Translations under genes and position numbers: made by a program
Source: Symbiotaphrina buchneri
Lineage: Eukaryota; Ascomycota; Symbiotaphrinales; Symbiotaphrinaceae
Reading direction: 5' to 3'
DNA: 64,000 nucleotides
Assembly (NCBI GenBank): GCA_001599915.1
Contig: BCIG01000003.1
Span: forward strand, 558,001-622,000
In this document: piece after piece, positions 1-54,394 of the stretch
Layout: every line of letters begins with the position of its first letter
Numbering within the stretch: position 1 is the stretch's first letter
The notes under the pieces: generated by a model
What the model was told of the DNA's origin: nothing
Databases searched by the model: none
What the model saw: only the letters and a program-made list of their open reading frames with translations

Positions 1-3000
1 GAAACTGTGTGGATGATCCCAAGAGGCTCCATAGTGCTGAGATAGTCATGTTGAGGAAGCTGGTGTGGCAGCTGCACTTCGCGAGTGTTGCCCACTTGTG
101 GTACCATGACGATGGTACGGACCTCCTTGATCTGATCATTGTCAGGCGGTGAAGAGCCGTACAGATAACCTGCTACCTGGACACGCAGATCCGCTATGGT
201 TATGAACTTCTTCAGCACGTTCTTAGGCATAATGTAAGTGTAATGACCATCCTCCTTGATATCATCGGATGAGATGTAGATATTGTTGGCTCGAGTCCGC
301 AGATTGGAGGTAGCGATTGCCCTGGTCCTCCATTCTGTCTTGGAAGCAAATGTCTGCTGCTCGAACTGAGAGGTTGTGGTGACAACAATTTCTTCACCAC
401 GGACATTCTGGGTCTTCGTAGTAACAGCTGTGAGCTGCGCCTGTTCTTGTTGCTGCTTTTCGATCTCGGCCGCTTGTTGACGTTGCATAGACGGTGCACT
501 AATTTCCATACCCAAAATGATGTCACGAACTTCGCTGCTTGTCAGACTTGAAGTGTTGACATTGTTCTTTTTGCCATAGTCGTTCAAAATCAGGTCACGT
601 AACTGCACTTCCACTTTGATCCAGTCTTCATCTGACAATGTAGGCCAGATATGGTGCTCCTGGGTGATGACTGTCTTGTCGGGCCGTAACAACAGCTTCG
701 TCTTGTCTTGGTTGACATGCAGAGCACGCAAGATCAAGATCAAACGTGAGAAGGCCGTGTATGAGGAGATAGTCTTCAGCCAATCATCATACAAATTGAA
801 CAATACCATTTGAGGTTCAGTAGCCCGAAGGATCATGTCGCCCAGTTTCTCCACCTTCATTGCTGCCTGGAATGGCAACTGCAGCTCCGACGCCCTGATA
901 GAGATATTAGGGAAGTCAAGCAAATGCACCTCAAGAGGATCCAGAAGACCCTTCCGCGTGACAATAAGTTGCTTTGGCTGTTCCTCGACAGGGAGAGATC
1001 GGATCAATGCAGCAACTTCTTCAGCTGTCTTCCACTTGGCCAACTGACCTAGACGCTTCTGACCGGCCCACACGCTTGTGTGGATGATCTTCAAAAACAA
1101 CTGGCCAGTGCGAGGGTTGAAGATAAAAATCGCACCATTGATTGGCTTGGTAGTCAAGTTTCCTTCGAAGGTCTTGTGAATGGTGACACGGTAAACGTTG
1201 GTATCATCGATGAAAAGCTGGATCTGGTTGCTGAACAGCTCCGAGTAATTCTGGGAGTTCAAGAACTCTTGATTGCTTTCAGAAGCGTAAAGCTGAAGAC
1301 CTTTCCTGATACGTTCGCGCAGGACATATAGAGCCGGATTTGCTTTCATGATCTTGGCCATCGCTTGCTGGACTAACGTCTTCAAGCCAGGGAAATACTG
1401 GCCGTATGCCGAGTACAAATTGTAAGCCAGGTCGATCCCGATCATGAGACCAGTCGCTGATGGATAAATACTCATGCTATCGGTAGTGTAGTCGAGATAC
1501 TTGGCACGAACGTACCGCTCAATATCATGCGAATCATAATCACCATACCGGAGCTGAACATCGACCCAGAATTTGTTAGTAGTCGTAGGCTCGATCACGT
1601 CCTTAGTGTCAAAGAGTAGTGATGGACGCGTGACGTTCCACTTGTGACTGGCGAATAGGAGGATATCGGCGCAAGAGCTGTTCATCTTGTAGGACTTCCT
1701 AGGGTGGATAGTCTCCTTCTGAACAGTCTCAATACCAAGAGCTTCCAGTTCTTGATCGAAGACTTGACACAAATCCATAACCACTGACTCGTGAATCTTC
1801 TGCCATAAATGGGCCCGGAAAATTTGTATAAGGGAAATCTTGAGAGTCGGGATCTTCCCGTGCAAGAAAATACCGGTCAAATCAAGCTGAACTTGGAAAC
1901 CGACATAAACATTGCTCCTGTTGATCGTCGGACTCCACCAGAGAGTGAATCGACGGTTAGGGATTTGGTTTAGACCGGAACGCTGAGCATTTGTGAGCTT
2001 CTTGAACTTCATCGACTCCTCAAAGCCACTGTTATGAAGCACGAGATTGTCATGCCGCAAATACAGCTGGTCTTCATCGACCCTAAAACCGGCCCAGTCC
2101 GTTGCCACAGGTTCGAGGGTGATATCCTTCACGACAAAGCTATGAGCTTCAGGAATAAAGTTTTCTGCTGCTTGGAAGAGTCTATAGTTGCGTCGCTCTA
2201 TCCTGTCCAGAGCCGCAAATTGAGCTGCTGTAATCTCAACAGTACTCTTCTGCCGGTATAGGACCAGAATATGGTTTGGCGTGACCACAAGATCCTCCTT
2301 CAGAGCGCCCATCTTGATGCGATACAGGCGTTCTTTGCCTTTCACAACATTGAATGCGCGACGTGGCCCTCCGTCAGGCCCAAGGAGCAGATCCCCTTCC
2401 TTAACGTCTTCAACCGCCACCTGGGTGCCATCGTACCGAAGCAACCGTGTTCCATAGGCAAGACAAGCCTTCTCCCAGAAGAGACCTTCCCAGGATGGGA
2501 AAGCTGTGGCTTTGAAAAGAGTGTGTTCAAGAATGGTTTCAACACCACCAAGAGCCTGGATGACATCCGTCCGGTACGCGTTCAAGTTCCACAACTTTCC
2601 ATCATGCCTCTGACTAGTCCACCAGAAGGGGTTGCTCTTCATCAGCTGGTACTGCTTGAACTCAGTCCTAGCACGGAAGCCTTTATCAAAGCTCAATGTA
2701 CTCCGATCCTTCTGGAAAAGCGTATTGATACGAGGTAAACCGCGATCCCAGCTGTCCTCCAGATCTTCCAGTGTCAGTCTTCTGTTCTGCTGGTTCGCCT
2801 CCTGGCGCTTCTGCGAGTACTCAGTCCATACGCGTTGCGAATCGATGAATTCAGCTTCCCAAGGTATGATATAGCGGAAAATATTTGGTATCAATGTCTC
2901 CTCGTCGTGGGTCATACCAGAACGGTAATGAGTGACGCCAGTGTCAGTTTGCTTCGACCATCTCTTATCGCTAGCAGGGATAAGAATGTGAGATCCAGAG

Positions 3001-6000
3001 ATCATACCGAGACCACCCAGTTCTTTGGGAGTATAGAAAACCGCAGGCGGGAAACGAGACGGCATTTTGGAGTTCAGTCCAATCTTCACTCGGGTCTGGA
3101 TCTTGGTCTCGCACTTGACAATGGTGTCGAGCAAGTTCACGGTTGCCACAGCGGCCTCACGATAGTACGTGAACAGAGCGATAAGACTAGTGTTCCACTT
3201 GTTGGCAATCTTTGTGAACGTCGTAGACCCAGATGACATTAGAATTTGCCTGATACGGTTGTTGAATTTCTGGATATCTTCTTCGGTAACTTGCAAGAAT
3301 GCATGGGCTGTCCGCTCCTTCGTCGTGTTGTCGACCAATGACCAGACACTATCTTTGACCGGAAACTCGTCGTTCAGGTTACGGATTTTAGGCAGGATAC
3401 GTACTTCGAAGCCGCACATCGAAAAGAGCAAGTTGGGGTTGTCTCTGCTGTAGACGCTCGCAAATGTATCATCCCACTCAATCGTCGTGATAGAGCGTGG
3501 CAGGCGATTCTTCAGATCCCAGAATACAGCGCGGCCAAGGTTAACGTCATGTCTCATCAATCTCATTCGTGAGTCTCTTGGCCAGCACTTCTTGTTCCGA
3601 TATCCGATGACATTTTCAAAGTTTGGATCCGGCTGTTCTGTGAGGAATCGTTGTATGAGATCCCTTGATTCATCTGCAGTGAAGCGCAGGAAAACCCAGA
3701 TCCGGTCAACGTAACGAGCATACAGTCGAATCGGGTGCCTCCCCTCTGTCTCACGATCTCTGAATTGAAGGAAATCATTCGGTGCCTGTGGTGGACCGGC
3801 GATCTCACTTGCACGCTGCAAACCGAGGAGGAGCAGGTCGATGACAAGGCCGTAATATTGGAATACGAACGCGGAGAACTGCAAGCCACGAATCATACCA
3901 TAGCTGTTGGTATGGTTCATGTCCTTGTAATTGAGCTGAACGTTGTTTTTCGAAGTGATATAGTCAGCCAAGTTATGATCCATGATCAAGCGGAGTAATC
4001 GATTGAGCAGTGTAAGGTCAATCTTTTCGTACACCTTGGACAGCTGCGTCTCAATCATGACATTGCATTCGCCTTCCGCGGTCTCCCACACTTGTGAAAG
4101 GTTGTTGATGCCCTGGGCCCACTTGAATACAAGAAGAGGAGGGACTTCCGAATCGGACGGCTTAATCCAGGCAGGAAACAGGTGACGTTGGTCGCCCTGA
4201 TACCAAAGATACTGATCGAGGTAAGCGTCCGTGATTTTCTCCACAGGCTCGATATCATAAACGGGATTGATCGTGCTGTAATTGTCGTTCATATCGATGC
4301 CAACTTCCTTGAAGGCTCTCTGTGTAAGCAAAAAGCGCTTGATTCTGGCCAACGTCGTCCCTGGAGAATCGTAGGCTTGTTCGATCAGTGCCAATTCTTC
4401 ACGCTGACTCTGGTTGAGACGGCCCTTGACAGAATATGCCTCCCTCAGTCGTTCAAGAGCGAGGATGAGAATTTTGGTGTCATGTTTGTAGGAAACGCTA
4501 GGGAACGGGATCGGCGAGAACTTCCGCGATTCAAGCCAATGCACTGTCGTCGTATAAATTGCGACAGCCTCTTCCGAAGAGACATATGGGCCATCCTTCA
4601 TGTAGTTATGTTGCCTTTCTTGCTCCGCTTTGAGCCACAAACGAGTGAGACGACCCAAGTTCTTCTTAGCCACAGTCTTATCAACAGTAGCTCCACGCCT
4701 AATGCGCTCACGGTTGTAGTGTGCCACAGATATCCACCAATCGGCCTTGCTCTTCACATATCTCAGGATGATGTTCTCGATCGGCGCAGGAAGACCTGGG
4801 ACCTTCCAAGGAATGTTACTCTTCCAGCACCTCCAGGCTTCGGAGAGATGCTGCAAGACGGTGTTGACCTTGTTCTGTTTGATACCCTCGGGCATCATGT
4901 CCATCAAGTCTGCCATGACTGAAGCTCGGAGTTCAAGATCAAAATGTGACTCCACACGCTGCTTAGTAACGGTCTTCGCAACGCCTTTGCTATGGCGACC
5001 CTCGAATTGACGCGAAAGAAGGTTTCCGAGCCATCGTTCAAGCAGTGGAATGATACCACGCATGAAGAGCAACCAAACTCTCCATGCAGGGGCCCAGAAA
5101 CCACATCCAGGACCTTTGCCGACCGAGCCGGAGTTGAAACGATAGTAGACCAGATGCTTCAGATCCTTGCAAGAGCGGATTTGATGCATAAGTTTGTACT
5201 TGTACCGGTACATACCGGTGAGCTGACCAACATGGTTAAAGGCATACATGATGCCATCTGCCAGCTGGAAAGCATCAATGTTGCCCAGTCGATATTGGAC
5301 CTGGGCATCAACAATCAATTTTGTCAACCTCAATATCTCTCGCATGAGATGGAATGCATTTCCAAAGCGCGATTTCTTCCGCTCCTTGGTCGTGAGGGTT
5401 TTGACAGGCTTGAGGTTAAAGTTATAGTCAAGATGGAGATACGTCAGGTTCTTCCTGTGAATCAAGAGATTCAGCATGTTGAAACCTTGCCGGCAGACTT
5501 GAAGACCAGCTTCAACCCAGTCGATGGTAGTTTGCTGGAAGAATTTCGTCGACTTCAGTGACTTGAGAAGATCCTGCTTGTTTTGCGCTTTGGGCTTCTT
5601 TTTATGGAGCTCATTCAAGACAAAGGTCTTCAGCAGTTTCTGATAGGACACCCGAACTTTAACAGGCGACGAGTGGGGAACATGCTCGAGGTACCATTGT
5701 TTCACCAATGGTACATCTTGGGCGCGGACCATCTTACCGGATCTCCTATCGAATGGATACGGAGCCCACCAGAGGGAAATAGCGGCCGAGGTATCATCGT
5801 TATAGAGTTCCTGCTCACCGAGGAAAGGTTCCACTTCGCCGGGGAACTCAAAGTCCTCATCTTCGTCATTGCCGTATCCGAAGATTTCGTCTTCGTGTGA
5901 AACGGTAATGTTCTTTGGTGCAACTGATCTCAAAGAAATAGGGTTTATAACGGGATCGAAGTAGAACGCTGGTAAGTTGGGGTCATCAGAGCGAACATAG

Positions 6001-7034
6001 ACCACTTGAGGGTACGAGTACCATGACAGCTTCACGCTGCGAGGTAGAGAATTGTAGAGATAGGGGAACGCGACTCTGTACTCCGTCCGGATGGGTGCAC
6101 GAAAGATGATCCGGTTGATGTCGTTAAACTCCCCAAAATCTTCATCATTCGGATCCACGTCTTTGTACAGGGGTTCAAAGCGAGGCCCTCCGGGAATGGC
6201 AACATTCAGCGCTTTGGCAGTAAGAAAGCTGTTCAGATCGAACATGTAGAAGTAATTCTTGTCCACCAAATCACTGAGCAACTGATGACTCAACCGATAA
6301 AGCGTGGCCATTTGGGGTAATGTAAGATTCCACGTCTTGTAGTTTGGGCCGTTAACGTGAGGTGTGTCCAACAACGGCCTATGCTCATAGAACCAGTCGT
6401 ACACCGGGGAATCTTCATTCTCATCGAGCTCCATCTGTATAGGCTCCAAAGGTTCAACGTCCTCGATGTTCTCCGACCATGACAGAGGAGGCTCCTCATC
6501 ATCGAAGGGCGGAAACCTCATTCTTTTGAAGTGCCTCCGATCGGCCTTTTCCCGTCTCATGACCACCCACATGGTCGCCCACTGGGCATGGAAGACGGGC
6601 TCGATGACCCTGGGTACCTCATTTACCAATGTCAGGCATCCGTTGACGTGGTACAGCACCTTGACCTCCCTGGCCGACTCCCAAGGCATAGGCATGTTCT
6701 CCAACAGCTTCAGGACTGCATGGGGCATAAACTTCAAAGCTCCGAGATAGCTCCTCTTATCGCTGCTAAACTTCTTTTGTGAGACGTCTCCAATATCCTT
6801 CACGATCTTCCTTAAATGCTCCGGAGGCATGTCAGCCTTCTGTGTCTCCACGAAACCTCCTTTGCGCTTCTCGCTGAAGCGGTTGCGCTGTGTCCGTAGC
6901 CATTCTTTCTTCTTCTGCTCGAACTTCGCGACCTTAGGATCTTGAGGCGGCCGGTAGCCTGGAGGAGGCGGTTGCAGAGGCATGGCTGGAGGGCCGGACG
7001 CACTCCATCCAGGAGGAGGAGGCAGGCCAGCCAT
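1..7034 (-). CDS. PRP8: Pre-mRNA-splicing factor PRP8 (partial, C-terminus off window)
   Basis: PRP8 is the central U5 snRNP scaffold that holds the spliceosome's catalytic RNA core in the nucleus. One uninterrupted frame of 2344 codons runs from ATG at 7034 to the left edge. The start shows the family's proline-rich N-terminus ([10 protein letters not shown]). Other recognisable stretches are [40 protein letters not shown] after the intein, and MEPLGIIHT inside the C-terminal JAB1/MPN-like domain. The last 150 or so residues lie outside the window, judging by the known family length of about 2335-2400. The frame includes an in-frame 145-codon intein (2031-2465) just before the SGFEESM motif. 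No intron is needed anywhere, unlike most neighbours. It is divergent from eL34, with 443 bp between the starts. Identity is very secure. Confidence 0.98.
2031..2465 (-). mobile_element. PRP8 mini-intein (145 aa, no homing endonuclease)
   Basis: This is an in-frame protein-splicing element inside PRP8. It begins with Cys1 in [14 protein letters not shown] (block A), directly after the host residues FWEKA. A block-B motif TPNH (residues 62-65, in [11 protein letters not shown]) follows. It ends with ...RHDNLVLHN, the penultimate His and terminal Asn, and the next host residue is Ser (SGFEESM). These are the residues expected for Cys1 acyl shift, block-B activation, Asn cyclisation and a Ser+1 extein nucleophile. 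At 145 residues it has no room for a LAGLIDADG endonuclease, so it is a mini-intein. The insertion point matches the site I know from other fungal PRP8 inteins. It looks intact, with no stop or frame break. Splicing activity is inferred, not shown. Confidence 0.95.
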
Positions 7035-7477
7035 ATTGACTAGACTGACGTGTCAAGAAGGTATTGCGATTAAGAAGACGTTGATCGTCTCGCGATCCCG
7101 ACGATGTCAAGCACCGTGACTCGGGGTTCTCTCGTAGGCCCAAACGACAAAGGGTATGTGACAGAAAGGAAATAAGAGAAGAAAACCCAAGCACAGAAGT
7201 GAAAGTGAAAATAACCACTTCACGACCGCGATGGAGATTCGAGTCTCCTGCTCCACGCGACAGCAGTGGCGTAACAAATCTTTGAGGAGATGCTGCCTCT
7301 CCTCGCCAAGCCACTAGCGCAGCTCACTTAATGGAGGCTCAACGGCAGAGCCGCACTTGCGCCTCTTGGGGCAGAAGCCCTCTTTGCCCGCACAATTAAG
7401 CGAACCTTTTTGCACGACTCCAACATTGAAGGTCTGAAGAAGGATCCAACGACCATCGACGCCGGCAAATATTCACG
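7035..7477. other. Intergenic, divergent PRP8/eL34 promoter region
   Basis: This 443-bp gap lies between the divergently transcribed PRP8 and eL34 starts and presumably holds both promoters and 5' leaders. I see no credible ORF. A short tRNA-B-box-like string near 7232-7250 was examined and rejected. Confidence 0.6.
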
Positions 7478-8444: not shown

Positions 8445-10296
8445 CTATGCATACACGGAACGCGGAAAGACGCCGTTACTCAAAACTTCGAACGCAATTA
8501 TCTCGCCATTATCGCCATGGTAATGATCCAGTCCCTCCAACATCTTACTCTCCACAGGAGGTTCGCCCATCCAGCTGAATGGCCGGTCATCCTCAGCGAT
8601 ATTGTACAACACACCCTTCTCCTGCAGCTCCTTGGTGATATGATTGAGGTCAAGGTCCAAATAATCAGCGATAAATTCCCCTACTTCCGTGTTCTCGTGG
8701 TTACTCCGGAGTTTGTTCGCGCCAGCAGAAGCGTAGATGTTCACGTCAACTGCAGAATGACCATGCGTCGACCAACCAACTTGGGCGCGACGGCTGACCA
8801 TGTCGGCAAAGAAGTAGGTGCTGGGAATTGGATTGTCGATCAGTAGTTGAAGTTCCTCATCCGTAGCGTCCTGAATACCCAATCCGGTCTGAACAAGCTC
8901 CTTGTTGACTGTCGCCTTGAGGTCCTTCGCGGACGATGAAGAAGATGCTAATAGATCTTTAAGGCGCGCGGCCAGGTATTCTGCCGAGTGCGAGGCGTTC
9001 GCAAGGACGCCGGGCAACCATAGGTACTCGGGGTAGGATGCATGGAGTTCTACGGCCATTGTTAGCCACGTTGGAGAAAGCGATCCTCAAGGCTGAGTAA
9101 TACTCACGCCGAGCGGTGGATAACCCTCCCGTCTCATGGTCACTGGTGCTCACAACCACACCGGCAGTATCAGAATCGTCCAAGAAGTTCAATACTTCTG
9201 CAAATGTCTTGTCATATTCAATGACTTCATGGACCTGCGCTACAGGGTCATTGTGATGACCGCCATGATCAATTCGGCTGCCCTCGACCATTAGGAAGAA
9301 GCCTTTATCACTGTCACGGGTAGCCTCTGTCAATGCCTTGAGGGCGACCCTAGCCATTTCATGCAAGGCAGGGTAGACGTCGTTCTGAGTCCTACGGTCG
9401 ACCTCGTAGGGAATATCTCCTCCAGCGAAAAGGCCAAGGAGCGGAAGCTTGACAGCGCCACCCATCTCGAGGCCATCGAAGCCTTTCCGATCATCAATAT
9501 ATGTGAAGCCATTATTCTTGGCCATTGCAACGACATCTTTGTCATCCGCCCTGCACGATCCAGCGGTGCTATTTGGCAAGAAGTGACATCGACCGCCGCC
9601 AAGCATAAGGTCAACCACTCTGCCCAAGGGGTAATTCCCGATCTCTTGCTCCGCAATTCTATCCTCTTCCGCCCTCGTGTTCACATGAGCAGCGAAACAT
9701 GCTGGAGTTGCGTCCGTTATCCTTGTCGTGACTACCAGGCCCGTCATATAGCCAGCCTGCTTCGCCGCTTCCAGTACTGTGCCGCAGGGCGAATGATCCG
9801 GACGGACTGAGATGGCGCCGTTATAACTCTTGAATCCGCAAGAAAATGCGGTAGCCCCCGCGGCTGAGTCTGTGACCAGACTGTTGGATGACCTGGTCCT
9901 TGAAGTTCCGATCAGATGCTGGTCGAGGACTAGTATATCATCAATCGGCAGCCCCTGCTGGTATTGCCTGAAGGAGCGCGTCAATGACAAGCTCGCCGGA
10001 CCCATCCCATCAGACACCATGAAAATCATATTGCGCTTTCCGCTAGGCTTTGGTTGCCGACTGCCATGCGTTGACTGTTGATGTTGCCATAACGCCGCGA
10101 TAATTATCACCGCCGTGGTTGCCAGCATCGCCCACACGAAAATCCCGACCTCTCTCCAGAAAGACCATGGATATTTTGAACCCCTCCTTGGCTTTTGCGT
10201 ATGTTGGCCAGTCAGCAGGGCATCCTCTTCAGCCCCTGCCTGATCATCATCGCGCTCACTTGACGGTGAGTCTGATAATAATGGTTCTTGCGCCAT
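8445..10296 (-). CDS. PHO8: Vacuolar alkaline phosphatase (PHO8-like)
   Basis: A metal-dependent phosphomonoesterase, expected to act in the vacuole lumen as a type II membrane protein. Two exons (10296-9108 and 9049-8445) flank a 58-bp GTGAGT...GTAG intron with a CTAAC branch site, giving 597 residues. The N-terminus is cytosolic and charged, with one transmembrane helix at about residues 47-70 (VGIFVWAMLATTAVIIIAAL). The catalytic features are MVSDGMGP (metal Asp), VTDSAAGATAF (nucleophilic Ser), SRIDHGGHHNDP and STSDHETGGLS (metal ligands), and GWSTHGHSAVDV in exon 2 (metal His). All ligands expected for the alkaline phosphatase fold appear present. It is divergent from the isochorismatase-like gene with 436 bp between them. 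The symbol is by analogy with yeast. Confidence 0.95.
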
Positions 10297-10732
10297 GACG
10301 GGGACTCCCGCTGGCCGAGGCCGGCAGAGTAGACTCTGGAGATGTTATGAGGCGGCAGACGGGTGTTGATGCTGGATAACTCAATCGAATCTGTCCCGCC
10401 TCCAAACGCGATAATAGACAGCTTGTATGAAGTGGTCCGTCTGCCTATCCCCAACTCCAGTCCAAGTTTCCGGCGCCTCGGGTCCAGATGCCGCATGTGA
10501 CCTTAGTCCGGTTTGAGTTGACTAAGGCACGGGGTTACGCCCATTTATGCTGCTATTATTGCATCACACCTAACTTCATAATTGTACTCGAGTACTCTAC
10601 GGTAATTTCTGCAGTAGTACTTGGGCGTCAATCCGTAAATTATAGACCCTCAATATTGACGAAGTGCGCGCTTCTCTGCTCGCTGTATCCATTCTTCGAG
10701 GCTTATCCAAAGCGTGGTGATCCTCATTCAAG
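10297..10732. other. Intergenic, divergent promoter region
   Basis: This 436-bp spacer lies between the divergent alkaline phosphatase and isochorismatase-like genes. It contains a perfect 12-bp palindrome, GTACTCGAGTAC, at 10584-10595, about 140 bp upstream of the hydrolase start. No function can be assigned to it. Confidence 0.5.
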
Positions 10733-42692: not shown

Positions 42693-45600
42693 ATGGCAGA
42701 GGACGGCGCCTCCTCGATATCAGTGACAGGTACGCATATATGATGATCACCCGAGGCAGGCTTGATTGAACCCTGACTGTCGCGCAGTCCGTGTTCGGCC
42801 GTTCACTATTCGAGAGGCGGCGCAGCTGTAAGTCCATTTTATGCAGTTACTGCGGAATTCAGATAGAAAGAGTGCTCATTCAAGCTCACGAATAGGACGA
42901 AATGCGATGATGGCCCCCTATTTCTCGGAGATGGCTCTCTTGCAGCGGTCCCTACTCCTAAACTTACGCAGAAGGGCATACGATCCGTCATAAAGGTGGT
43001 GGATGACAAGTGCCTGTCAGTACCTGCTCAATGACTCTCGACTCGCATCATAAAGCTGATCAAACATTATCTAGCGTTTTCGACCCTCCGGAAGATAATC
43101 CAGTCCAAAGGTTCTCACGGTCGGTAGTGCCCAATTCAGGAAAGAGAGTCAAGGACCAGACGTTCGCCTTTGACCGTGTATTCGATGAGAACACGACCCA
43201 AGGCGATGTATATGAGGCAACAACAAGGAACCTTCTCGACAGCGTCTTGGATGGTTACAATGCAACAGTTTTCGCATATGGGGCCACTGGCTGCGGCAAG
43301 ACACATACCATCACGTACGTCAGGCTAGGACTCTATCAGAGTGTACTTCTAACTGGATGTGACAGAGGTACTGTTCAAGATCCAGGCATAATCTTCTTGA
43401 CCATGCAAGAACTCTTCGAACGAATTGCGGAGCGACAGACCGAAAAGCATACAGAGGTCTCACTATCATATTTGGAAATCTACAATGAGACGATTCGTGA
43501 TCTCTTAGTGGAACCTTCAAGTGCGCCTAAGACTGGGCTTATGCTGCGTGAAGATGCAAACCAGACGGTCTCTGTAGCGGGCCTGTCGAGTCATCATCCT
43601 CAAAATGTCAGTCAGTGTCTGGACTTCCGTAACATAGCAAGCTGACGCCCAGAAGGTGCAAGAAGTTATGGACATGATCATGAAGGGAAACGAATTACGG
43701 ACTATGTCTCCTACGGCAGCAAATGCGACTTCGTCCCGGTCTCACGCGGTGCTGCAGATCAACCTCTCTCAGAAAGATCGCAATGCAGACATCAACGAGC
43801 CGCATACAATGGCAACACTGAGCATCATTGATCTCGCTGGAAGCGAGCGAGCCAGTGCAACTAAGAATCGAGGCGAAAGACTTATCGAAGGGGCGAATAT
43901 CAACAAATCACTCCTCGCCCTTGGGAGCTGCATCAATGCACTATGCGATCCCAGAAAGCGTAACCATGTCCCATACAGAAATTCTAAGCTTACCCGATTG
44001 CTGAAGTTCTCGCTTGGTGGCAACTGTAAAACGGTCATGATCGTCTGTGTCAGTCCGTCAAGCCAGCACTTCGATGAGACGCAAAACACCTTGCGGTACG
44101 CCAATAGAGCCAAAAATATCCAGACCAAGGTAACGCGAAATGTTTACAACGTCAACCGCCACGTAAAGGATTTCTTGAAGAAAATCGACGAGCAAATGCA
44201 ATTGATAAACGAGCTTAAGCAACAACAGAAGGACTATGAGGCGACAGCCTTTACAAAATTCAGGAAACAGACTGAAAAACGAGATGCGGTTGCTAGAGAA
44301 GCGGTGGCTCGGATACGCAACGCGTACGAGCACTCCTCAGCTGAAAGGCTAGAGAAGATGAACAACATGCGTAAACTGAGACAGATTGAACGGAGAATCT
44401 CCATGATATCTGCCTGGGTGGCTGCCTTCGATGGTGTCTCTGCCGCTCGCGAGGACGGAGATGCGCTTTCAAACCTGGTCGCTGTTAGGAAAACAGCACA
44501 AGGTATCCTTCTGGAATTGGAAGGTAGCCGGCAGCACATTCATCAGCGGCTCGCGAAGAGTAACTGGGAGAGGGCTGTCGATACAGCGCTGCAAACTGGG
44601 ATTCGCCAACTCAATGAAGTGGACGGTGGCGGTGACAGTTCGATAATCAGCAGCTTGACCAGAGAGGCGGAGCTGCTCAAAGCTAACGCTGACCGGGAAG
44701 GACTACTAAGCGTACAGGATATGGAGAAATCTGGGGACGCTGTAACGGTGCAGGTACTGCTGCAAGCTCACTTCGAAACAATATCCACAGTCCATGACAT
44801 GATGACGATGAGCCAGGAGGAAGCTGTTGAATTGGCAAGGGCCATTCTTGGTAAAATCATTAACTCCTGCTCGCAGGCAACTTCTCAAGTTATTAAACCA
44901 GATGGGGGTCTGCAGATTGATGAGTTCACAGTCCCGCCACGGTCATCTACACCCAAACGGAAGAAGCAGGGGAAGCTGGTTGCGGCATCCCCTTTGCTGC
45001 TCATGTCTCCAGCTTTGACAAAAGCACCACATTTAATGTCCTCCCCACTGAAAGCTTCGCCAAAGAGGCGGAAGGTTGCTCTGGCGAAGAAGGGTGTCTC
45101 TTTCACACCCAAGAAATCTCCTGGCAGAGCGAACAAGAGGGCTGTTAGGTGGAGAGACGATGCTGAAGAGGGTGCTCTTGCCGAATTCGAGAAGACTCCA
45201 CAAAAGCTCGATTTGACCCCTTCTGTATCATCGTCAGAACCTATTATCGGTACGACCTCGCCTGTATCAAGTTTAGGTGTCAATGCGGTTGTTGTCTCTG
45301 ACGGCTCGTCGCCATTGGGCCCGCCTCCAGAGACGTCCATTGACCTGAAGCCCAAATCCAACCGGTTCCAAACGGGCTTTCTGGCGAAGAAGCCTTACTC
45401 CTCGCCGCCTCCTCCTCGTCGGACACATCACTCATCTTCTGACTCAGAACAGTCCCCTCTGCGAGATCTTGAGCCTGGCAAAGCTACGAACCGGTCTTCG
45501 TTGCACATCATGGAGAATGTGTCTTCTTCGGCCACTAACAGCGACAATGGTGGCGGTAAGTCGTCATCTGACGGCGAGGGCAAGCCCTGGAAGACGAACC

Positions 45601-45941
45601 ACGTTGATGCCGCCAAAGTTAAGACGGCGATCAAGCGTGCGTCGATGGCAAGCGGCACGCATCGCCGTAGGAGCCCGGTTGGAGCTGCTTCAGGAAGTCC
45701 GCCCAACGAGAACAACATGTTCACAGCAAGCCATGCTCGTCGAATGGTAAAGAGCGAGAAGGATGGCGAGTGGAAAGGGAGCGTCTTGAGTCCCCGGACT
45801 GCACCGGTGGTAAAGCTGGGCAGCGCGAGACGTTCCACTCTTTCCGAGGCAAGATCTCGGGAAACATCTGTAAGGCTGAGCGTTGCCGGCAGTGCTTCAA
45901 AAGTCAGGGACAGTGGTGCTATGCGGCCACCGTTCAGATGA
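42693..45941 (+). CDS. Kinesin-8 motor protein (KIP3/KipB-like)
   Basis: A plus-end-directed microtubule motor and depolymerase controlling spindle and nuclear positioning in this family. Six exons: 42693-42729, 42788-42827, 42896-43015, 43075-43314, 43366-43606 and 43653-45941, giving 988 residues. The N-terminal motor contains [36 protein letters not shown], the P-loop [10 protein letters not shown] (about 135-144), [14 protein letters not shown], switch [14 protein letters not shown] and switch [18 protein letters not shown], then [40 protein letters not shown] and a coiled-coil neck follow. The C-terminal 450 residues are basic and Ser/Pro-rich, as expected for a microtubule-binding tail. 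The last intron ends in a CAGAAG tandem acceptor, so Lys inclusion (43653 or 43656) is ambiguous. Kinesin-8 rather than another class rests on the neck and general similarity. Confidence 0.93.
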
Positions 45942-49882: not shown

Positions 49883-51571
49883 GGTCCTCGCCTTGGTTGA
49901 TAAAGTTAAAGAGGCTCTGTGCTAGGAAAGTATGAAGGACCCTGGGACATGCACTCGCTGTCAAGGTGCAAGCGCGATCGCTTGGGGCAGGCAGAGTGGA
50001 GATAGTTGAGGCAAGCGCAGCAAAGGCTGCTCAGAGACGCAATTGCATAAATAACACAGTGCAGAAAAATGAAGTTAAGAACCAAGTATCAACGAGTGAA
50101 TTTAAACATTCACTTTGCCCCGTGAAGGGTGAATGGCTACCGGCCTATATTCGAAGGGAAGTAATAACATTGCAATGCAACTAACAGCTTATATTTACCT
50201 TATTCTACATGCGCAGCCAAGGACGCACACAGCAGAAGGATGACGGGTTGGGAGGGACTTTAAGGGCACTGGCGCCACGGCACGCCGGCACACCAGAAAA
50301 ACCATGTCGGGGTAGAAAAATTGTCACAGTCAATGAACCTGGTGAAGAGAGACCTGGGTGTGTGTGGAAGGTGCCCACATCGCTGAAACGATTGATGGCT
50401 CTTCATTGTCTCTTTATGGGCAGTTGGTGTTGACAAGGCTGGCCCGCTCGCTGTCTCCCTGGCGCTCAATCTGTCCCCCTGGTCTTAGCTTAGGTAATAT
50501 AAATAATGCCGCTACCGGTATCTTCGGTATGATGCTTGTTATTGCCTCATAAAAGCAGCGCCGTGCGTCACCACAACGGCCGTCGCATGTTCCAGCGGGC
50601 TTCCAGAAGATGACATAATTCCGGCCTTGTTCTGTGCTGCGTAGGGGTCCCTACCTGCGGTTAGGATACAAGAGGATTTCCGTACGACTAGAGTCTATCA
50701 AGAGGATTTAATCACTGCAGCAAATACAAATCAGCAATGGGAAGTATAAGTGCAGCGATCTTATGTTTGGTTCACTTTGGTCCATCCGGACGTGTTCAGT
50801 CAAACAAGCAACTTGCCTTTCCCGTAAGGTCATAAAGGCAGGAACCCTGACGGCTTGGTGCTAACCCTAGCGCTTCTTAGTGATCCGCTGCAAGAGGGTC
50901 TGAGATGCGAACACTAAACTCCACCATACCTTACCTACCTTGCCTCTAGAACATCAGCTACAGCATAGAGGCCTGTGCCCATCCCGAAGAGCTCGCCGAC
51001 CAAATCTCACAGCCAGCTGATCGCAAATTCAGAAAGGTGAGACACACCGGGACGGTCATCCCAGGTGCTCTCTCTGGACTTCCGACTCCCAACCACTGCG
51101 GCCCCGCGCGCATTTACAGCTGAGCTTGGCAATCTCCCGGGCGCTGTCAATTGAACGAGCCCCCTCGGCATCCGTTCATTCGGCTTGATTTCACTACCAC
51201 ATACGGACGCCCATTTGCTACAACCTGTTGGAAGCCCACACGCAGGTAACATACCTGGACGGTTACTGCCAGTCCTGGCGACGGATCGTGAAACAGGCCG
51301 TCATTGACAGCACGGCTGCCCGCGTCCGCCAATCCCCAAACCTACTGGTGCGATTCACATGTCCTTCTCTTTGATCAATCGGATGCTAACTCGATTTTCG
51401 CGCTGATAGGCATACTCGCTATCTTTGATCGGCCTGCGTCTGCCCCCTACCAGCATCGTGGACAGATCCATCATGCTTCGACCGTCATTCCTTGTACAGC
51501 TTCCAACGGGCTTTTAGGTCGTCAACCTTGCGGAGTACTGTGGCAGATGCTTCGGCAGTCAGTAGGGCCCA
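49883..51571. other. Intergenic, 1.69 kb divergent spacer
   Basis: Between the divergent propeller-like gene and the F-box/CNBD gene. A run of TACCTTACCTACCTTGCC lies near 50927-50944. Short frames at 49966-50552 and 51304-51588 have no recognisable content; the latter may be part of the long 5' leader of the F-box gene. Confidence 0.5.
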
Positions 51572-54394
51572 ATGCGTCGACACAGTAGGGCCGGTGGGGC
51601 TATTACCGCTCATGGAAAGAATGGAGGTCCGAAAGTACCAGATACCTTACGGCTCATTCGTAGCTTCGATTCAGCAATCAACCCGTCTCAGCCACAGAGG
51701 CCATCACCGCTCTCGGCATCACAGATACAGGACATACCACTGGATCTCCTGGATCGCATGCGATCATTCCCCCTGTTTCTCTCTGCTCCGGAGAGCTTCC
51801 TTGTCGCCATAGCCAAACATCTTCGTCCGCAGATGCATTCAGCACATGATTATATCATTACGGAAGGAGACGAGGCCAAATCGATGTTTTGGCTGGTCAG
51901 GGGTGCCGTCTCCGTAACTTCTAGAGATGGAGAGAGCACTTATGCCGAACTCAAGCCAGGATCATTCTTTGGGGAGATTGGCGTCTTGATGGACATACCT
52001 CGTACGGCGACCATCATAGCTCGAAGCCGATGTCTTCTAGTCGTACTGAAGAAGGAGGACCTAATGAAAGAGCTTCCCAATTTTCCCTCGGTGGAACAGT
52101 CAATCCGTGAGGAGGCCCAGGAAAGGCTGAGCATCCTGCAACGGAAGAAGAAGGAGGCTCAGACTACACGAGCAGATAGACGCGCAAGAGACGGAACAGA
52201 TGGCGAGGTTGCCGTGGGAGAAGAAGGCATTTTGACCAGTGCTGGAGTTGTCAATCACAAGAAGAGAAAGTCGCCGAGCCCTGGCTTGGTTGAGCTACCT
52301 CTTTCCAGTGCCTTGGGCACAGGATCAGTGAGCGTCAGGCAATTATTGAAGGAATTTCCGTTATTCTCCACATTGCCTGCGGAAATACTTCACTTCCTCG
52401 GGTTGAATGCGCAACCAAGGTCATATCCTCCATTCACAGATATCATCCGTCAAGATTCGCAAGGCAGAGATGTGTTCTTCATTGTGACGGGTGAAGTGGA
52501 AGTTGTCGATGAAAAGCCCTCTCGGCATGCTGCCAGGAGAGAAGCAAATGGCCTTGGCAAAGGCGTCGAGCCGCGTGTGAAAGCGAGATTAAGACAAGGT
52601 CAATACTTTGGGGAGGTGGCTAGTCTTTCGCTGGCACCCCGACGCACGGCGACGGTCCGTTCGGTGACCTCTGTCGAGTGTCTGATGATTAGCGCAAAAG
52701 TCCTGGACGAACTGTGGGCAAGGTTTCCTGAAAGCGTACGCCAGCAGGTTGAGCAGACCGCTAGAGCCCGCCTCAAATCTGCAGAAGATGACGATATTAC
52801 CATGACGGAGGCCGAACCTACACCCCCCATCAATGAGCTTGCAATTGCGGATCTACCCCACCGAACATCCAGGAAAGGCGGCCAACCGGTCGTGAACCTG
52901 GCACAGTATAGAGCGGACCCACCACAAACCGCTGCTATTGCGGATGTGTCTAGCGTCGAACCTGCGGACCCCGATCCATTCCTCGGCACTGAACTTGACA
53001 GCAGACTGTCGAGATCTCGAAGAGCGTCCTTGGCGCCAGCATCACCGGAAGGCAATCTTGCAGGCTCAAACGATGGCCAAAACATTCGCTTTCCTCGGAC
53101 TAAGTCACCTTCGGTCAGATACAAGTCAAACAGCCTCGGTCGTGAACACGGCTCGTATGCCAAGCGCCCTCGAACAATCCAGAGAAGACCGAGCGAATAC
53201 AGCAAAGGCATTTTTCCAGATAAGATCCTGATCAAAATATTCCAGAATCTCCACATATGCGACCTTATGCGACTTAGACGAGTGTCCATCTACTGGTCAA
53301 AATTGCTCAATACTTCCCCTGAACTTGCACATCATCTGGACCTTACCCGTCATAACAGAAAAATTACTGATGACATACTTATCAATCGTATCTGCCCTTT
53401 TGTCGGACCCCGTGTTGTGGATATCAGCAATTGTTTCCATATATCGGATGAAGGATTTCGAGCACTAGCTACTACCTGCGCTGCCACGGTTCGGGTATGG
53501 AGGATGAAGAGTGTTTGGGATATCACTGCACAAGCAATTCTCGACATGGCCAACGCTGCAAAGGTTCTTGAAGAGGTGGATCTCAGTAACTGTCGCAAAG
53601 TCAGTGACACGCTGCTTGCGAGAATAGTGGGATGGGTCGTGCCAGAAGCTCCATCGGCGCCTCAGCAGCAAGTGATGCCTAACCCGAATGCGCCTAATCG
53701 GCAAGGCTTCACTCAAGCGGCTCCTGGAACAGTCATAGGTTGCCCAAAGCTAAAGAGACTAACTCTCTCTTATTGCAAGCATGTTACTGATCGATCAATG
53801 GCGCATATGGCGGTGCACGCGTCATCCCGGCTTGAAGAGATCGATCTAACACGGTGCACGACAATAACTGATCAAGGCTTTCAACATTGGAGTATCTATC
53901 AGTTCCCGGTGTTGACGAAGCTATGCTTGGCAGATTGCACATATTTGACCGACAATGCTATAGTATACCTGACCAATGCGGCGAAGTCCCTGAGGGAACT
54001 TGATTTGGTAAGCTTTTTGCGTCGCATTCGGTTGCACTGGCTAACGTCAGGCATCACACAGTCTTTTTGTTGTGCACTGTCGGATACGGCGACGGAAGTT
54101 TTGGCGCTGGGCTGCCCGCTTTTGACCTCACTCAACCTGTCGTTTTGTGGCAGCGCCGTCTCGGATTCATCTCTCCGCTGCATTGGCCTACACCTGCTTG
54201 ACCTTCGCTTCTTATCTGTCCGCGGTTGTGTTCGAGTTACTGGCATCGGTGTTGAGGCTATCACAGATAACTGTCTAAGACTGGAGGAGTTTGATGTGAG
54301 TCAATGCAAGAACCTGGTCCCTTGGATTCAGGCTGGCGGGATTGAACGTGCACCGGAGAGGATCAAATTCAATACGGTGGCCAAGGGGCGTTGA
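51572..54394 (+). CDS. Dual cyclic-nucleotide-binding domain / F-box / LRR protein
   Basis: Two exons, 51572-54007 and 54062-54394; the 54-bp GTAAGC...ACACAG intron has a GCTAAC branch site and preserves the frame. Spliced length is 922 residues. Two cNMP-binding-like domains are visible. The first, about 65-170, has IITEGDEAKSMFWLVRGAVS and FFGEIGVLMDIPRTATI. The second, about 255-395, has IIRQDSQGRDVFFIVTGEVE and YFGEVASLSLAPRRTATVR. The FGE...PR(R/T)TAT signature corresponds to the phosphate-binding cassette. An F-box follows at about 546-590 (GIFPDKILIKIFQNLHICDL). AMN1-type leucine-rich repeats then run to the end (LEEVDLSNCRKVSDTLL, LKRLTLSYCKHVTDRSM, LEEIDLTRCTTITDQGF). An SCF ubiquitin-ligase substrate receptor responsive to a nucleotide is the natural inference; whether it binds cAMP is unknown. 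Confidence 0.92.
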   Translation: MRRHSRAGGAITAHGKNGGPKVPDTLRLIRSFDSAINPSQPQRPSPLSASQIQDIPLDLLDRMRSFPLFLSAPESFLVAIAKHLRPQMHSAHDYIITEGDEAKSMFWLVRGAVSVTSRDGESTYAELKPGSFFGEIGVLMDIPRTATIIARSRCLLVVLKKEDLMKELPNFPSVEQSIREEAQERLSILQRKKKEAQTTRADRRARDGTDGEVAVGEEGILTSAGVVNHKKRKSPSPGLVELPLSSALGTGSVSVRQLLKEFPLFSTLPAEILHFLGLNAQPRSYPPFTDIIRQDSQGRDVFFIVTGEVEVVDEKPSRHAARREANGLGKGVEPRVKARLRQGQYFGEVASLSLAPRRTATVRSVTSVECLMISAKVLDELWARFPESVRQQVEQTARARLKSAEDDDITMTEAEPTPPINELAIADLPHRTSRKGGQPVVNLAQYRADPPQTAAIADVSSVEPADPDPFLGTELDSRLSRSRRASLAPASPEGNLAGSNDGQNIRFPRTKSPSVRYKSNSLGREHGSYAKRPRTIQRRPSEYSKGIFPDKILIKIFQNLHICDLMRLRRVSIYWSKLLNTSPELAHHLDLTRHNRKITDDILINRICPFVGPRVVDISNCFHISDEGFRALATTCAATVRVWRMKSVWDITAQAILDMANAAKVLEEVDLSNCRKVSDTLLARIVGWVVPEAPSAPQQQVMPNPNAPNRQGFTQAAPGTVIGCPKLKRLTLSYCKHVTDRSMAHMAVHASSRLEEIDLTRCTTITDQGFQHWSIYQFPVLTKLCLADCTYLTDNAIVYLTNAAKSLRELDLVSFLRRIRLHWLTSGITQSFCCALSDTATEVLALGCPLLTSLNLSFCGSAVSDSSLRCIGLHLLDLRFLSVRGCVRVTGIGVEAITDNCLRLEEFDVSQCKNLVPWIQAGGIERAPERIKFNTVAKGR

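Follow-up and report, generated by a model that had tools for sequence, protein, structure and literature searches.

An in-frame insert at a conserved point of PRP8

The PRP8 gene of Symbiotaphrina buchneri is interrupted within a highly conserved part, and the question is whether the interrupting segment is an intein that is translated with the protein and splices out of it, an intron removed from the RNA, or a degenerate element that leaves PRP8 split. We analysed the window, the whole stretch of 64,000 nucleotides around this locus. The PRP8 frame occupies the minus strand and runs without interruption throughout window positions 3-7052; it is one open frame, whose stop is located beyond the window start. 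Six PRP8 Pfam domains were matched in this host frame, each well above its cut-off. Counted from the first Met, the protein comprises 2498 amino acids with the insert and 2353 without it.

The insert consists of 435 bases, or 145 codons, on the minus strand, and is placed in frame between ...GLFWEKA and SGFEESM... (Table 1). The preliminary description had reported a 145-codon in-frame insert directly before the SGFEESM motif, with a Cys start, a TPNH block B and a His-Asn end followed by an extein Ser. Its coordinates proved exact, the segment is free of stops, and all of these residues were read at their places. Cys1 is the sole Cys of the 145 residues, and residue 61 is Val. With uniform codons, the chance that 145 codons stay open is approximately 1 in 1000.

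In all five alignments printed by phmmer against the PDB, the PRP8 chain of another organism runs on unbroken past the insertion point: four have adjacent residues (e.g., 1530|1531 in spp42 of 3jb9), and one overlaps by a single residue (9l5r, 1633). In human PRP8 (3jcr), the first matched stretch ends at 1506 and the second begins at 1507. This search, run with the flanked insert, returned 17 distinct sequences, namely three intein constructs and 14 PRP8 chains; five of these chains (3zef, 4i43, 5gm6, 3jcm, and 5lqw), which we take to be S. cerevisiae, are listed with the first half alone, and for them adjacency is not readable. The match to one of the constructs, 6owu, extends beyond the insert into its flanking residues (query 49-196). 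The in-frame position at a conserved PRP8 point before SGFEES is that of the Prp8i-a inteins.

Table 1. Features of the PRP8 locus, in window coordinates unless a contig position is given
Feature	Position	Strand	Basis
PRP8 mini-intein (predicted), site a, 145 aa, without endonuclease domain	2031..2465	-	Exact in-frame insert, phmmer, Pfam Hom_end_hint
Cys1, first nucleophile, block A	2463..2465	-	Sequence; aligns with first Cys of solved PRP8 inteins
Block B TPNH, residues 62-65 (TxxH)	2271..2282	-	Aligns with THNH of solved PRP8 inteins
Block G His144-Asn145, C-terminal splicing residues	2031..2036	-	Aligns with terminal HN of solved PRP8 inteins
C-extein Ser+1, second nucleophile	2028..2030	-	Sequence
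PRP8 N-extein coding part, from first Met	2466..7034	-	Open frame and Pfam domains
PRP8 C-extein coding part	1..2030, on to stop at G000:C3:557538	-	Open frame
PRP8 Pfam domains matched: PRO8NT, PROCN, RRM_4, U5_2-snRNA-binding, U6-snRNA-binding, domain IV			

Homology to PRP8 inteins

A search of the insert against solved structures gave nine distinct sequences up to E 1. The best matches are the PRP8 intein constructs 6mwy, 6mx6, and 6owu (phmmer, E 3.2e-35 to 3.9e-34), which bears out the earlier identification of the insert as an intein; the best single match, 6mwy at E 3.2e-35, ties the insert by homology to Prp8i-a. The alignment to 6mwy contains 48 identities over 76 aligned residues in the first half and 33 over 71 in the second, with three query residues shared by both stretches. 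We take the three constructs to be Cryptococcus PRP8 inteins. This assignment fits the crystal structure of PMC6805012. The next matches are chains of the VMA intein (E 4.9e-5 to 6e-4); in the S. cerevisiae VMA intein PI-SceI the weak similarity covers the first 51 residues of the insert (E 4.9e-5), whereas PI-SceI resides in another host protein at another site and bears an endonuclease.

Among the profile models, Pfam Hom_end_hint matches the insert with 42.6 bits against a curated cut-off of 32.1, while three other Hint-type Pfam models (Hint_2, Vint, and Intein_splicing) and the NCBIfam model intein_Nterm stay below their cut-offs. An AlphaFold2 model from the single sequence without relatives has a mean pLDDT of 39 and is uninformative on the fold of the insert, HINT or otherwise. 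Up to E 1, Pfam gave no Hom_end or LAGLIDADG family for the insert, and a genome search with Hom_end gave no match at the PRP8 locus and matched on contig C17 alone. The 145-residue insert is thereby without a homing endonuclease domain, as a mini-intein is. Its Cys1, TPNH at 62-65, His144-Asn145, and Ser+1 are those of a class 1 intein.

An intron that by chance contains no in-frame stop would also leave the reading frame intact: the length is divisible by three, and the insert contains one donor-like GTRNGH and one branch-like CTRAY site. However, the sole excision that restores the exact DNA junction has TG...AC ends, and no GT-AG, GC-AG, or AT-AC excision in a stretch reaching 30 bases beyond either end of the insert yields an uninterrupted protein; moreover, the encoded product strongly resembles solved inteins. 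Since no excision with these ends in this stretch restores the PRP8 protein, we rejected the RNA intron, whose probability is negligible. Judged by its sequence, the insert is a PRP8 site-a intein without endonuclease, as supported by homology, the exact boundary, and the failure of the RNA-intron reading. It would almost certainly be a cis-splicing class 1 mini-intein that is translated inside the PRP8 precursor.

Proposed splicing and inheritance

The splicing pathway of class 1 inteins is established knowledge, and the chemistry, efficiency, and mode of inheritance proposed here are drawn from it. Cys1 would attack the bond to Ala-1 in an N-S shift aided by Thr62 and His65, and Ser+1 would then receive the N-extein. 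Asn145 would cyclise with the help of His144, and the exteins would be ligated as ...WEKA-SGFEES.... Because all splicing residues are present, the mini-intein most likely splices. The preliminary description had called it intact; this holds at the sequence level, where the splicing residues are in place, and its activity is what we infer from them.

In an intein that had lost splicing, PRP8 would be left interrupted. The small size could be taken in this sense, as could the fold, which AlphaFold2 leaves unconfirmed: 145 residues are fewer than in all 13 mini-intein rows, by our own count, of Table 1 of the 2006 survey by Butler et al. (PMC1508164). Against this, PRP8 is termed essential in an excerpt of PMC6805012, no loss was seen among the catalytic residues compared, and a 300-residue C-extein stretch has a single match in the assembly (23.4 Mb, 82 contigs). 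We therefore consider a degenerate element very improbable and retain the splicing-competent mini-intein as the predicted state. The intein itself likewise has a single match in the assembly; with one match each for the intein and the C-extein stretch, no empty second PRP8 copy is seen.

Lacking a homing endonuclease, the insert is expected to have stopped homing; the PRP8 mini-intein would be inherited vertically and kept because of its splicing. The third-position GC of the insert is 0.524, near the low end of the values for window extein stretches of equal length (range 0.517-0.724, with a mean of 0.594). As this value is inside the extein range, it gives no clear indication that the insert arrived recently, and a foreign origin on the grounds of composition was rejected. 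Two stretches of viral contigs fit a pattern, and tblastn found no relative among them.

Comparison with known PRP8 inteins

According to the excerpts of Green et al. 2019 (PMC6805012), approximately 100 PRP8 inteins are located at site a, where nearly all fungal PRP8 inteins are found, including that of C. neoformans. Mini-inteins are described as common among PRP8 inteins in the portion of PMC1508164 used here, which gives 153-180 amino acids for those at site a, with the endonuclease wholly absent. An excerpt of PMC10849329 mentions a smut PRP8 intein of 284 amino acids. One of PMC5784728 states that eukaryotic inteins at large reach down to 123 amino acids, so 145 amino acids is within the known size range of inteins.

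The Cryptococcus PRP8 mini-inteins share with the S. buchneri intein the host protein, the insertion point, the lack of an endonuclease, Cys1, TxxH, and the terminal HN, but they have 170-172 residues in the excerpted PMC1508164 compared with 145 here. Most of this difference in length is located around residues 75-77, and seven residues are missing farther on. In addition, Val61 and TPNH in S. buchneri stand in place of Cys61 and THNH in Cryptococcus. In the case of the ascomycete PRP8 mini-inteins (Aspergillus/Neosartorya and Uncinocarpus), compared by published description only and from the same excerpt, the site and the complete absence of the endonuclease are alike, whereas their 153-180 residues exceed the 145 found here.

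The excerpts of PMC6805012 also describe the residues involved. The PRP8 inteins analysed there have in common C1, the His of block B, and the Asn at the C-terminus. In the C. neoformans intein, C1, H65, H170, and N171 are located at the zinc site; their counterparts in the insert are Cys1, His65, His144, and Asn145. C61 is not conserved in PRP8 inteins, with Val being the commonest residue at this position, and a C61V variant of the A-1V reporter spliced much as its parent did (PMC6805012, same excerpts). We infer that the S. buchneri PRP8 intein may be inhibited by zinc. It is a possible but rather doubtful reading that the insert belongs to the shortest natural PRP8 inteins, as a nearly minimal splicing domain with the C. 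neoformans zinc-site residues retained; if true, it would allow a clear-cut test of whether the core active site alone suffices for metal-responsive PRP8 splicing.

The insert is a real but ordinary further example of a known element, at the commonest PRP8 intein site. It adds one more fungal genome to the known patchy distribution of PRP8 inteins and leaves the general picture unchanged. A small site-a intein could serve as a splicing tool, and it is a possible test case for inhibitors because PRP8 inteins are discussed, in titles and abstracts, as antifungal targets.

Genome setting and a putative GLT1 intein

Several other genes are recognisable in the window. An alkaline phosphatase-like open frame adjoins PRP8 (window 8959-10344, minus strand; Pfam Alk_phosphatase, 303.5 bits). 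On the plus strand, an open frame at 51566-54394 contains two cyclic-nucleotide-binding stretches, an F-box, and leucine-rich repeats, and one at 43638-45941 carries a kinesin motor domain with only profile positions 171-327 of 327 in frame, probably owing to an intron upstream of the partial motor domain. A Pfam Fungal_trans domain is also present.

In searches of the whole genome, Hom_end_hint matched the PRP8 locus alone, and Intein_splicing had no match in this genome and matches in six of 14 control genomes. Both searches missed an insert in GLT1 (glutamate synthase) and thus do not amount to an intein census of the genome. The GLT1 insert lies outside the window at G000:C17:281834-283795, minus strand (L004:4335-6296), has 654 amino acids between MMRK and CHLNSCPVG, and looks like an endonuclease-bearing intein from its sequence features. 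Its first residue is Cys, and it ends in VVQN, so that the penultimate residue is Gln where His would be usual. By eye, LWLGDG and LIESDG were recognised as two Asp-containing LAGLIDADG-like motifs, and residues 398-654 match PI-SceI (E 5e-5). Hom_end was above cut-off at this insert in the genome search (23.9 bits); in a scan of the whole GLT1 frame, Hom_end and LAGLIDADG_3 came just under cut-off and no Hint family was listed. A BLASTP comparison of the GLT1 insert with the PRP8 intein gave 28% identity over 129 columns (E 4e-4 for the single pair). Endonuclease-bearing GLT1 inteins are already known, according to an excerpt of PMC5056185.
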